This document shows, in pieces, positions 12,618 through 16,179 of a stretch of 64,000 bases of DNA. The translations under genes were made by a program, and so were the position numbers. The DNA comes from Pseudomonas sp. B21-040 (lineage in GTDB: Bacteria > Pseudomonadota > Gammaproteobacteria > Pseudomonadales > Pseudomonadaceae): positions 2,783,501 to 2,847,500 of the forward strand of contig NZ_CP087176.1 of assembly GCF_024748695.1 (NCBI RefSeq), read 5' to 3'. How positions within the stretch are numbered: the stretch's first letter is position 1; each line of letters opens with the position of its first letter. The notes below the pieces were generated by a model, which saw nothing but the letters and a program-made list of their open reading frames with translations, made no database searches and had not been told where the DNA came from.

Positions 12618-13502
12618 ATGTTCGACTGGAATGACTTGCGGTTTTTTCTCGAGTTGCAGCGCAGCGGGCGTTTGCTCACCGCCGCGCGCCGTTTGAACAC
12701 TACCCACGCCACGGTCGCGCGGCACATCGAGGCCATCGAAAAGAGCCTCGGCACGGCGCTGTTCGTCCAGCATGCGCAGGGTTACGAATTGACGCCGGCC
12801 GGCGAAGCGCTGCTCAAACACGCCGAAGCGATGGAAAACGTCGCGCTGCTGGCCCAGGAAGAAATCACCCAGTCCACGGCACCGCTGGGCAAGATTCGCG
12901 TCGGGGTGACGGAAGGGCTGGGCATCATGTTCCTGGCCAGCCGCATGAACGGTTTGTTCGAACGCTACCCGGGGCTGGAAGTGGAGCTGGTGGCGGTGCC
13001 GCGCTTCGTCAGCATCCTCAACCGCGAAGCCGAGATCAGCATCCACCTCGAACGCCCGTCCGCCGACATGCTGGTCACCCGCAAACTCACCGACTATCGC
13101 CTGGCGCTGTACGCCAGCCAAGCCTATCTGGACCGCGCACCGCCCTTGCACAGCCGCGAAGACCTCGCTCGTCACGCCTGGATCGGCTATGTCGACGACC
13201 TGCTGTTCAGCCAGGAACTGATGTTCCTCAACAGCTTCTGCCGCAATCCCCAGGTGGTGTTCCACAGCACCAGCGTCATCGCCCAGCAACAGGCAGCGCG
13301 TTCTGGGTTGGGGATTGCGGTGTTGCCGTGCTACATGGCCAGCGCAGATCCGGAACTCGTGCCGTTGCTGCCGGAGGAGAGCATCCAGCGCAGCTACTGG
13401 ATCAGTACGCGGCGCGAGCTGCACAAATCGGTGCGGCTGCGCGTGCTGTGGGATTACGTGGTGGAGTTGTGTGAAGTTGAGCAGGCGTTGTTGTTGGGCT
13501 AA
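12618..13502 (+). CDS. LysR-family transcriptional regulator
   Basis: This 294-residue LysR-type regulator has an N-terminal helix-turn-helix (LLTAARRLNTTHATVARHI) and an effector-binding domain. It is divergent from the GMC oxidoreductase and MFS transporter with a 121-base gap, the usual arrangement for a local regulator. The inducer is unknown. Confidence 0.85.
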   Translation: MFDWNDLRFFLELQRSGRLLTAARRLNTTHATVARHIEAIEKSLGTALFVQHAQGYELTPAGEALLKHAEAMENVALLAQEEITQSTAPLGKIRVGVTEGLGIMFLASRMNGLFERYPGLEVELVAVPRFVSILNREAEISIHLERPSADMLVTRKLTDYRLALYASQAYLDRAPPLHSREDLARHAWIGYVDDLLFSQELMFLNSFCRNPQVVFHSTSVIAQQQAARSGLGIAVLPCYMASADPELVPLLPEESIQRSYWISTRRELHKSVRLRVLWDYVVELCEVEQALLLG

Positions 13503-13578
13503 TGTTTTTGCGTCCAGCCAATGGATGACGACAAGGAGCGTTATCCGACACTCCGTCGTGATAAAGGGAGCTTGCAGC

Positions 13579-13794
13579 ATGACCGATGAGACAACAGTAA
13601 AAGGGCCCGCGTCGTACTTCCCGTCCATTGAGAAAAAGTATGGACAGCCCATCAGCCACTGGCTGGATTTGCTTGGGGCAGTGAGTGGCAAGAAGCACAT
13701 GGAAATGGTGGCCTGGCTGAAGGCTGAGCACGGTATGGGGCATGGGCATGCCAATGCTTTGGTTGCGCATTATTTAGCGGCCGGCAAGAAGTGA
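13579..13794 (+). CDS. DUF4287 family small protein
   Basis: This 71-residue protein contains the DUF4287 pattern: YFPSIEKKYGQPISHW, then MVAWLKAEHGMGHGHANALV. The function of the family is unknown. The ATG at 13579 follows GGGAGCTTGCAGC. The longer open frame starting inside the LysR gene is not used, because the LysR gene covers it in another frame. Confidence 0.85.
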   Translation: MTDETTVKGPASYFPSIEKKYGQPISHWLDLLGAVSGKKHMEMVAWLKAEHGMGHGHANALVAHYLAAGKK

Positions 13795-13856
13795 CTGAGC
13801 CGGGCGGGCAGGGCATGTTCATGCCCTCCCAACACCCTTCAGACAAAACACCAAAC

Positions 13857-13963
13857 CCTGTGGGAGCCGAGCTTGCTCGCGATGACGGAGGCCCATTCAA
13901 CATCGATGCCGCTGACACACCGATATCGTCGGTACGCCGCCCGGAGCAAGGTCGCTCCCCCAT
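13857..13963. repeat. Inverted pair of CGAGCTTGCTCGCGAT-type repeats
   Basis: A CCTGTGGGAGCCGAGC...TCGCGAT unit at 13857-13882 is followed about 60 bases later by an imperfect inverted partner (GGAGCAAGGTCGCTCCCCC). The element family also appears at 35682, 44306 and 61891. Confidence 0.7.
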
Positions 13964-14149
13964 GGATTTCGATCGGCTGACGCAGCGAGAGAATCCTCTG
14001 TTTCACTTACGCTTAAACAACAAAAATCCTGACTGTTTAAACGAAGCCTCCTGTTACCACCCAAAGGCTACAACGCCTTGCGCCGCTGCCCACAGGTAAG
14101 ACAGAATCCGCCGGCTTGTGCGTCCAGGGGGCCGTCGGTAACTTGATTC

Positions 14150-14372
14150 CCGTCACTGCTCATCAGTGATCGGGTCTGCAAGCCCGCCGGAATACCAGTC
14201 GCATAGCCCAGCCAAGGACGCTTGTTTATGTCCGCTCAATGGCGGCTTTGTGCGGGAGACCTTCGGGTCTGCCGGGTTCCTGGTTTCCCGGTCTTGCAGA
14301 CCCGCGCATAGCTGCCACCCATCATCTGCAAGTGATGTCGGTAGCTCCTAATGAACAATCAGGAGTTTCACC
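14150..14372 (+). ncRNA. Candidate structured leader RNA of the DUF6124 gene
   Basis: An 11-bp perfect inverted repeat, GGGTCTGCAAG at 14172-14182 and CTTGCAGACCC at 14293-14303, closes a domain of about 130 bases. Inside it, CGGGAGACC at 14253-14261 and GGTCTGCCG at 14266-14274 form a hairpin with a TTCG tetraloop. TCACTG/CAGTGA just upstream and CATCA/TGATG at 14320-14337 form smaller hairpins. The region ends at the ribosome-binding site AGGAGTTTCACC. No open frame in it is convincing. I recall similar leaders before other Pseudomonas genes of this family, but cannot verify that here. Confidence 0.55.
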
Positions 14373-14735
14373 ATGATCAAACCAACACCCAATCCACCGG
14401 AAACCGATCCGGCATCTCCCTACGAATCCCTCGATTCCAAAAAACTCCACGAAGCCGCCGAGCGCGCTCTCGACCACTACCTCAACCCGGCCGCCCAAAT
14501 CATGGCCAGCTCCCACCAACCCGAACCGATGTTCCTCGCCAACCCTAAGTGCGACACCGAATCCCTGCTGGCCAACGCCAGCGAATCATTGGGCTCGGCG
14601 ACCACCATGCTCAGCAATCTTGCGGCGTTATTGGACAACTCAAACCGCAAGACCCTGCTGGGGATTACGCAAGTGGTGATGTTGGGGGAACTGGCGGTGA
14701 ATCAGGCGTTGGATAACGTGGAGCCGACGGCGTAA
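14373..14735 (+). CDS. DUF6124/DUF3077-like Pseudomonas small protein
   Basis: This 120-residue protein resembles the Pseudomonas-restricted DUF6124 group. A proline-rich start (MIKPTPNPPETDP) is followed by EAAERALDHYL, MFLANPKCDTESLLANASESL, SNLAALLDNSNRKTLLGI and a final helix EMAVNQAL-like segment. It is likely soluble and helical; no biochemical role is known to me. The ATG follows AGGAGTTTCACC. A long structured leader precedes it and a hairpin at 14746-14775 follows, so it is probably a single-gene unit controlled at RNA level. Confidence 0.8.
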   Translation: MIKPTPNPPETDPASPYESLDSKKLHEAAERALDHYLNPAAQIMASSHQPEPMFLANPKCDTESLLANASESLGSATTMLSNLAALLDNSNRKTLLGITQVVMLGELAVNQALDNVEPTA

Positions 14736-14745
14736 GAAAAATCCC

Positions 14746-14775
14746 GCGTGGCGAACGGTTCGCCCGTTGCCACGC
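14746..14775 (+). terminator. Hairpin downstream of the DUF6124 gene
   Basis: GCGTGGC and GCCACGC enclose an inner AACGG/CCGTT stem with a TTCG-containing loop. The T-tract is weak. Confidence 0.55.
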
Positions 14776-14911
14776 AGGGAGGTAGCACGTCCACATCGGT
14801 ATGCGTGAAGTATCAACGTTTTGGAAAAGCCGAATCAGTAGCGGCTGTTATCGGGCATTCAAGACCCTCTCGCTCCAACCCTCAGGTGGTCTGTGCATCA
14901 GACGATTTGCA

Positions 14912-14963
14912 TAGGTATAGGGGGTATGCCTATCATGCGCAATGCATAGGTGAGGGGGGTATC
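14912..14963 (+). promoter_or_regulatory. Candidate RcnR/DmeR-type operator
   Basis: TAGGTATA-GGGGG-TATGCCTA at 14912-14932 is an inverted repeat with one mismatch around a G-tract. A related half, TAGGTGAGGGGGGTATC, lies at 14947-14963 and overlaps the ribosome-binding site. CsoR/RcnR-family repressors bind such G-tract inverted repeats, so autorepression in the absence of Ni or Co is likely. Confidence 0.65.
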
Positions 14964-14965
14964 AA

Positions 14966-15241
14966 ATGGGTCACATCGCAGCCAACAAAGACGAACTGCT
15001 CAAGCGCGTAAAACGTATCGCCGGACAAATCCAGGCGGTTGAACGGGCATTGGAATCGGATCTCGATTGCGCCAAAACGCTGCACCTGGTGGCCGCCACC
15101 CGCGGAGCCATCAACGGGCTGATGGAGGAAATCATTGAGGACCATGCCCGGGAGCACGTCGCGAACCCGGCACTCAGTGCAGAGGAGCGAAACAAGGGCG
15201 TCGAAGAGCTTCTTGAAGCCATACGCCGTTACTCGAAGTGA
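14966..15241 (+). CDS. CsoR/RcnR-family nickel/cobalt-sensing repressor
   Basis: This all-helical repressor of 91 residues belongs to the DUF156 family (CsoR, RcnR, FrmR). Metal-site residues His3, Cys35, His60 and His64 sit at exactly the RcnR positions, which favours Ni(II)/Co(II) sensing over Cu(I) (CsoR) or formaldehyde (FrmR). It starts after GAGGGGGGTATCAA. The next gene, a CDF exporter, follows with overlap or a 20-base gap, forming a dmeR-dmeF-like unit. Metal binding should release it from the G-tract operator upstream. Confidence 0.82.
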   Translation: MGHIAANKDELLKRVKRIAGQIQAVERALESDLDCAKTLHLVAATRGAINGLMEEIIEDHAREHVANPALSAEERNKGVEELLEAIRRYSK

Positions 15242-15261
15242 ACGCATCCAGGTACCCACTC

Positions 15262-16179
15262 ATGAGTAGCTCCCGTATCCACTACACACACGACCATATG
15301 TTCCTTGGCTCAGCGCACGACGAAAATGCCAAGCGTACGCTTTGGGTTGTGGCACTGACCGTTGTGATGATGGTTGGTGAGATCACCGCCGGCTATATCA
15401 CGGGCTCGATGGCGTTACTGGCCGATGGCTTCCATATGGCAACCCATGCCGGCGCATTGGGTATTGCGGCGGCCGCCTACGGTTACGCAAAACGCCACGC
15501 TTCCAGCCAGCGCTACAGTTTCGGTACCGGAAAGGTTGGAGACTTGGGCGGGTTCGCCTCGGCGCTGATTCTCGGTATGGTTTCCCTGGGAATTGGCGTT
15601 GAGTCTGTCATGCGCCTCTTGCAGCCTACGGACGTTCAGTTCGGCACCGCTACGCTCATCGCGATTGCCGGTTTGATCGTCAACATTGTCAGTGCCCTGC
15701 TGCTGGGCCACGGACACAGTCATGGCCACGATCATGATGATCATGCCCATGCTCATCACGGGAACGACAACAACCTGAAATCGGCCTACGTCCACGTCAT
15801 CGCGGACGCGCTGACTTCGGTTCTGGCCATCGCTGCACTGCTCGCTGGCCGGTATCTCGGTTGGGTGTGGCTGGACCCGGTCATGGGCATCGTCGGCGCC
15901 ATCGTTATTGCGCGTTGGGCATGGACATTGATGGGGGTCACCGCAGGTGTACTGCTGGATCAGACCGATGCGCACGTTGCCGAGGAAATTCGCGAACTGG
16001 TTGAGAAACCGGGGGATGCCACCATCACCGACTTGCACGTCTGGCGGGTCGGACCGCAAGCCCATGCGGCCATCGTCAGCGTCCTTGGTGAGGCCACTGC
16101 GAACGCCGACAGCATTCGTGAACGTCTCAAGCCGGTTCACGAAGTCAGCCATCTGACGGTCGAATTTCGACCGGTCTGA
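15262..16179 (+). CDS. dmeF: DmeF-type cation diffusion facilitator (Co/Ni efflux)
   Basis: This inner-membrane CDF exporter of 305 residues uses the proton gradient to expel divalent metal. Six membrane segments are predicted, with transport-site motifs LLADGFHMATH and HVIADALTSV. A His/Asp-rich cytoplasmic loop (HGHSHGHDHDDHAHAHH) and a C-terminal metal-binding domain are present. I chose the ATG at 15262, after AGGTACCCACTC; a GTG at 15238 would overlap the regulator stop. DmeF proteins export cobalt and nickel, and the adjacent RcnR-like gene agrees. Confidence 0.85.
   Translation: MSSSRIHYTHDHMFLGSAHDENAKRTLWVVALTVVMMVGEITAGYITGSMALLADGFHMATHAGALGIAAAAYGYAKRHASSQRYSFGTGKVGDLGGFASALILGMVSLGIGVESVMRLLQPTDVQFGTATLIAIAGLIVNIVSALLLGHGHSHGHDHDDHAHAHHGNDNNLKSAYVHVIADALTSVLAIAALLAGRYLGWVWLDPVMGIVGAIVIARWAWTLMGVTAGVLLDQTDAHVAEEIRELVEKPGDATITDLHVWRVGPQAHAAIVSVLGEATANADSIRERLKPVHEVSHLTVEFRPV

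Follow-up and report, generated by a model that had tools for sequence, protein, structure and literature searches.

In the window analysed here, a stretch of 64,000 nucleotides from the chromosome of Pseudomonas sp. B21-040, a 223-nt leader (14150-14372) lies directly ahead of a small gene, which raises the question of what kind of RNA this leader encodes and what it does to the gene. The initial annotation described a structured RNA, possibly an undescribed motif, placed before a DUF6124/DUF3077-like gene. Several of the features that it named are present: an 11-bp perfect inverted repeat (GGGTCTGCAAG at 14172-14182 and CTTGCAGACCC at 14293-14303, 11/11 paired, with 110 bases between), an internal hairpin with a TTCG tetraloop (AGACC-TTCG-GGTCT, 14257-14270), flanking hairpins, of which one was located at 14152-14170, and a good ribosome-binding site (RBS), AGGAG, ahead of the gene start at 14373. 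Its statement that the leader holds no coding frame has to be softened, as a mechanical 61-aa GTG frame (14166-14351) crosses the leader; nothing supports this frame as a gene. The leader folds at -94.8 kcal/mol (z -4.58), and none of 200 shuffles was as stable. The repeat alone proves little because 11-bp inverted repeats with 60-150 bases between are not rare in the window (105 overlapping positions).

The leader contains a member of a known RNA family. The covariance model of the C4 antisense RNA (Rfam RF01695) matches the forward strand at 14235-14322 over its full length (model positions 1-87 of 87) with 78.3 bits (cut-off 45, E 1.2e-13), and no other match in the 64-kb window is above its Rfam cut-off. 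For reference, phage P1 scores 68.8 bits for its own C4 and 51.0 for its own a1b1. The idea of an undescribed motif is therefore abandoned, while the other part of the initial proposal, a structured regulatory RNA, stands. Covariation among homologous leaders is also found, since 12 of the 22 predicted C4 pairs changed on both sides among the 43 copies of this genome.

C4 is the antisense RNA that sets the immunity of one coliphage apart from that of another; the work on C4 of P1 and P7 is said to originate with Citron and Schuster in 1990. The P1 record has the order a1, b1, C4, a2, b2, icd, ant1, with a2 starting four bases past the C4 end and b2 ending ten bases ahead of icd, and our pairing script recovers the annotated a1, a2 and b2 and 7/8 bases of b1 from it. 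Our locus, compared with P1 and not with P7, has the same RNA fold and the same layout: a putative promoter just upstream of a1, then a1 and a possible b1, C4, a2 just 3' of C4, a candidate b2 at the ribosome-binding site near the start codon, and the gene. The 11-bp inverted repeat consists of the a' strand of C4 and its a1 target: an antisense strand facing the first of its targets is a better reading of it than a stem of purely local nature. In contrast to the P1-type immI operon, which carries an icd frame and an antirepressor, the locus has neither: its gene belongs to DUF6124 (PF19619) and has no PHROG match up to E 0.1. It also differs from P1/P7 in that the predicted C4 target is the DUF6124 gene read directly, on a chromosome that holds tens of copies with different specificities.

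All parts of the module lie on the forward strand. A putative sigma-70-type promoter (14116-14144) combines a -35 box TTGTGC (14116-14121), a 17-nt spacer and a -10 box TAACTT (14139-14144). A comparable layout precedes 41 of the 43 C4 loci of this genome, the -10 pattern TAnnnT being the search anchor and hence fixed by construction, and a strict consensus promoter scan of 13500-15500 found none. By eye, CCTACA/GCTACA and TTTCCNAC words recur about 40-75 nt upstream of the -10 box in many C4 loci and might be a shared activator site. Further upstream, a repeat stretch at 13850-13965 (GTGGGAGC..GAGCTTGCTCGCGATG type) resembles what we take to be a Pseudomonas REP element; positions 300-440 of a query spanning 13540-14040, which are part of this stretch, have many matches in this genome and in relatives.

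The a1 target (14152-14182) consists of a hairpin (GTCACTG..CAGTGAT) followed by the 11-nt strand of the repeat, which forms perfect pairs with 14293-14303 at -19.8 kcal/mol. This hairpin with a complementary strand upstream of C4 is what the c4-a1b1 family (RF03163) also has; however, the match at 14139-14190 scores 29.0 bits, under the cut-off of 46.7. The cut-off is passed in 2 of 20 relatives' loci and in 7 of 20 loci from IMG/VR. A possible b1 target, ACCAG (14194-14198), placed according to the P1 order, is weak (5 pairs with the C4 loop, -6.6 kcal/mol). By analogy with P1, mature C4 would extend from about 14241 to 14319, with a GG start and a CCACC end. The TTCG hairpin belongs to it according to the sequence, the C4 alignment and the covariation of the stem. 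The variable loop b' (14277-14286, TTCCTGGTTT) could pair with the RBS at 14357-14365 (9 bp including two G-U, -10.4 kcal/mol), and the unpaired strand a' (14293-14300, CTTGCAGA) has 8 perfect pairs with a2 (-10.5 kcal/mol) besides the 11 with a1. The a2 target lies at 14325-14332 (TCTGCAAG). The ribosome-binding region (14344-14365) includes GCTCCT (14344-14349) and the b2 target AATCAGGAG (14357-14365). When folded from 14238 onward, C4 is predicted to adopt the Rfam consensus, six of the eight a2 bases to lie in the loop of a hairpin, and AGGAG to pair with GCTCCT. The loop region of this locus finds its best duplex and its longest perfect run at the start of the coding sequence and not at the RBS, and its own zone ranks 13th of 43. 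Judged from sequence, the a' contacts (8 and 11 perfect pairs) would carry the case at this locus, the contact between loop and RBS appearing weak to modest.

This module is one of many. The genome of the strain (6.75 Mb, one contig) contains 43 C4 matches over the cut-off, and 34 of them have a DUF6124 (29) or DUF3077 (5) gene at most 500 nt downstream on the same strand. Conversely, C4 lies at most 500 nt upstream of 29 of the 33 DUF6124 matches of the genome, none being matched for the other four, which bears out the earlier belief that similar leaders precede other members of the family. Eight of the remaining nine C4 loci precede a third small-protein family that is linked by local profiles (no Pfam match in the 5 proteins tested), and the ninth, C08, is left unassigned. 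Frames of 28-38 aa lie behind the C4 targets of C02, C05 and C08; those of C02 and C05 precede a DUF3077 gene, as icd precedes ant in P1. At about 803.5 kb (L043), a DUF6124 gene and an a1b1-like hairpin (41.5 bits, below the cut-off) occur with no C4 match, perhaps as a module that lost its C4. A role of this locus as a trans target is not supported: among the C4s of this genome, only C28, C29 and C15 give 7-nt a' matches, and these all hit the stem of the hairpin instead of the target strand. At about 4.436 Mb, a PrrF small RNA (L045, 1391-1539, 155 bits) shares a 2.6-kb stretch with a DUF6124/DUF3077-like gene without a C4 match.

Each of the 43 C4s was compared with the targets of every locus, using 10,000 permutations. 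The longest perfect Watson-Crick run between a' and a2 was 7.23 for cognate against 4.31 for non-cognate combinations, with at least 7 nt in all 43 loci, and that between the loop and the ribosome-binding zone was 7.02 against 4.57. For the upstream region, the corresponding values were 7.30 against 5.10 (a') and 6.44 against 4.70 (loop). In each of these four tests, no permutation reached the observed cognate sum. The same holds for downstream duplex energy (-16.4 kcal/mol for cognate and -12.0 for non-cognate, 0/10,000), by which the own target comes first for only 8 of the 43 C4s and in the top three for 25, and the upstream one first for a single C4. At the best-pairing position of a2, every one of the 43 loci has Watson-Crick pairs at positions 2-7 of a', and each of these positions shows between two and four types of pair; position 1 of the fixed window is paired in 14. 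With a2 and the RBS taken together, the own target is strictly best for 33/43 C4s, compared with 18/43 for the upstream sites alone and 37/43 for all four sites. By a2 and RBS, it is also strictly best for 22/30 C4s in genome G010 and 28/30 in G019 (best 30 of 36 and 42 matches, respectively).

The code words differ between loci. Each of the 43 loops is unique, and a' is shared by 22 of 903 pairs. Among eleven hand-picked pairs of close paralogs, the loop has 0.53 differences per column, a' 0.37, the first hairpin 0.31 and the stem 0.21, gaps being counted as differences, which favours the loop. Since the a' and loop words differ in this way, the roughly 40 copies would be largely separate switches. 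A known RNA family is deployed unusually, as about forty probable switches in one chromosome with matching targets beside each. Selection against shared codes within a genome was also considered and finds no support: the same loop occurs in 2/1773 within-genome pairs (43, 30 and 30 loci) and 9/3480 between-genome pairs (Fisher p 0.35). One tandem pair in G010 shares both code words.

From these data, we think it highly probable that the leader is a C4-type antisense module that would silence the translation of its DUF6124 gene in cis and probably in trans. We assign the C4 module itself confidently, and control of DUF6124 by a block of translation is likely. This reading is based on what is observed for family membership, layout, cognate pairing with covariation, conservation and purifying selection on the protein. 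A single transcript would begin just upstream of a1, and C4 would be cut out of it, as by RNase P in P1, to an RNA of about 77 nt. The a' strand of C4 would then bind a2 just 3' of C4 and its loop the RBS, so that DUF6124 would not be translated; C4 would act in this way in cis and probably also in trans. The upstream a1/b1 could hold uncut C4 and may be a decoy or timing element.

The untranslated start of the gene may furthermore let Rho end transcription. In the icd-ant operon of P1, the untranslated icd is terminated by Rho, and a C-rich gene start would fit this scheme. The first 80 nt of the gene (14373-14452) contain 31 C and 9 G, an excess of C over G that is matched by 0.16% of the 80-nt windows on both strands; the same count gives 23 C and 11 G for P1 icd. 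In 51 genes with a PxPP start, C and G make up 39% and 15% of the first 80 nt and 31% and 30% later, and C is more than twice G in 42/51 of them in the first 80 nt and in 0/51 later. The C-rich and G-poor first 180 nt or so of the DUF6124 gene may therefore resemble a Rho loading region.

The module is widespread in the genus. In a genus sample that includes this strain, C4 is matched in 110 of 119 genomes (above the cut-off in 109) and DUF6124 in 95 (above it in 94); at most the best 33 C4 matches per genome were counted, so that 33 stands for at least 33. In a class sample, again including this strain and scored for the best 15 matches per genome, C4 occurs in 22 of 281 genomes, the other 21 having 1-4 copies (nineteen genomes), 6 (one) or 10 (one), and DUF6124 in this genome only. 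A scan of named genomes gave at least 513 relatives, of which the best 80 are all Pseudomonas. Among 80 relatives' loci, taken mostly from the top of the score-ranked list and thus biased to high scores, the pairing of a' with a2 reaches at least 7 nt in 75 and that of the loop with the RBS zone in 54. By a2 and RBS, the own target is strictly best in 25/80 and best or tied in 52/80, a lower share that probably reflects orthologs of different genomes sharing codes. Downstream of these loci are DUF6124 (25), DUF3077 (31, with 5 in both), the third family (7) or none of these (22); some of the last have frames similar to a Pfam Bro-N protein, one of which was tested by Pfam.

Homology in 9 of the 11 loci compared runs from about 13985-14053 to about 14722-14824 of the window, and no transposase or clean boundary was found at shared insertion ends among the 11. 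C4 lies at most 1.5 kb from a DUF4287 gene in 5/20 relatives' loci; L095 has LysR and DUF4287 genes but no C4, and presence at this site therefore varies. Some cassettes are found in prophages. Against 50,697 phage records, DUF6124 gave one match, which lies at a prophage record's edge; plasmids gave none. IMG/VR contains 50 loci with a relative, many of them at contig ends, which may be host flank, and an Rfam scan of 20 of these loci found C4 in all 20. In nine of the 50 (L319, L320, L323-L328, L331), the gene is preceded by a tail-fibre match and followed by a sheath match; in L329 and L332 only the sheath match is present, and in L312, L313 and L315-L317 a different tail protein lies downstream. 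The PHROG names were verified for L319 and L313 only. In the prophages of L325 and L326, DUF6124 is identical over the 118 residues compared, the C4 loops differ, and each loop matches its own RBS by 6 nt. L328 (1864-3381) has two tandem C4-DUF6124 cassettes in one prophage, with proteins 97% identical, different codes and a piece matching the sheath gene between them. A switch from one immunity type to another would be expected to leave such patterns.

Since C4 is a phage immunity RNA, the module could also be left over from prophage immunity, or could serve superinfection immunity by silencing incoming phages with the same C4 type, with DUF6124 as a passenger. Cassettes among the tail genes of several prophages and relatives' C4s before Bro-N proteins speak for this explanation, which we nevertheless regard as unlikely. 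The 43 loci are scattered over the genome (smallest gaps 1.0 and 5.3 kb), which rules out one prophage holding all copies. Moreover, of ten neighbouring frames at nine loci, six belong to ordinary cellular families, two have only helix-turn-helix/STAND-type matches and two have none; no ant gene follows at our locus. Finally, the DUF6124 protein is under purifying selection, with dN/dS of 0.05-0.18 in 7 equal-length paralog pairs (0.13 against paralog C11).

Silencing by a C4 that acts also in trans is compared next with attenuation in cis only, in which nascent a1 would pair with a' in an uncut transcript, the winning pairing would set the accessibility of a2 and the RBS, and no free C4 would be made. 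The full leader indeed folds with a1 and a' paired (11 bp), and since cognate pairs lie within one locus, the same covariation would be expected. However, C4 is conserved as a whole fold, including the long stem that closes it and the CCACC end, and attenuation would not obviously need all of this. In Acinetobacter baumannii, moreover, the available text of a study by Weiss (2016) describes C4-like regions whose read numbers greatly exceed those of the transcript upstream, as if they were excised, and 21 C4-like sRNAs with RNase P-like ends (PMC5320573). We consequently hold attenuation in cis only to be rather improbable. The A. baumannii Group 1 sRNAs resemble our set in their many copies per genome (21) and in a variable a' loop, but a matched downstream gene family is not reported in that text (PMC5320573), whereas here 34/43 precede DUF6124/DUF3077 and a cognate a2 site is present in 43/43. 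IsrK of Gifsy-1 (RF01394) is similar as a prophage RNA on a small frame, orf45, and the next gene, anrP, according to the consulted part of a 2025 review (PMC12197685). It was rejected as an identity, its match over the a1 region being weak (19.7 bits against a cut-off of 50).

The gene itself (14373-14735, forward strand) encodes 120 aa and is assigned by profile to PF19619 (69.5 bits, gathering score 27), which settles the DUF6124/DUF3077-like label on DUF6124. The start MxKxTPNPP is near-fixed in 48 DUF6124 proteins, with M1, K3, P6 and P8 invariant; the third-family proteins C22, C42 and C43 have a similar PDPP start and differ in their later parts. An AlphaFold2 model (mean pLDDT 77.9, pTM 0.51, helices 62-86 and 89-114) predicts a helical hairpin that follows an N-terminal part of lower certainty, and comparison with the PDB was uninformative (best E 0.78 by Foldseek and 0.11 by profile). 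DUF6124 has no match in PADLOC, NCBIfam or PHROG, and was rejected as a known defence gene. These properties bear on a further explanation, a pair resembling a type I toxin-antitoxin system that addiction would maintain and that would spread as a moron, with the C4 RNA as the antitoxin and DUF6124 as the toxin. An RNA that would silence a small protein, the many copies, the carriage by prophages and the annotation of icd, the C4 target of P1, as a cell division inhibitor are all compatible with such a pair. However, a 120-aa protein with a predicted helical hairpin is unlike a short hydrophobic peptide, and PADLOC has no match for it; we give this explanation little credence. An undescribed structured leader or riboswitch, suggested by the strong fold and the absence of an evident coding role, was dropped upon the full-length RF01695 match far over the cut-off and the P1-like layout of the targets, and has next to no likelihood left.

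The available parts of earlier publications list c4 and its a1b1 target (Weinberg et al. 2010, PMC2864571), state that Ant synthesis is repressed in trans by c4 RNA (PMC8546580) and present c4 as a P1/P7 RNA (PMC12197685). Our search of the open-access literature found no paper linking C4 to DUF6124/DUF3077; such a link may already be known from subscription journals or from the supplementary material of Weinberg et al. Likewise, the only open-access paper found on DUF3077/DUF6124 mentions, in the part available, a base insertion in a DUF3077 gene of a furfural-tolerant strain (PMC9630843).

The C4 device thus fronts a large uncharacterised family of small genes in a genus that is common in soil and on plants, and dozens of DUF6124/DUF3077 genes gain a testable mode of control. 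One chromosome offers about forty largely distinct RNA codes together with a natural record of their co-evolution, and this set of antisense pairs is a resource for finding the minimal sequence that makes two RNA regulators ignore each other. Tentatively, we suggest that a phage immunity RNA may have been turned, in this genus, into the control part of a family of mobile cassettes with private codes, moves between hosts and phages, and proteins of phage competition. If so, the richest genomes would hold 30-40 or more C4-gene cassettes, each silenced by its own, largely private antisense code, and these cassettes would travel between chromosomes and the moron sites of phages. Any incoming cassette would be silenced by a resident C4 of its own type, and therefore only new types would be expressed on entry. 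Hence, the cassette set would act as dozens of co-resident heteroimmunity groups, and the DUF6124, DUF3077 and third-family proteins would act in competition between phage and host or between phages.
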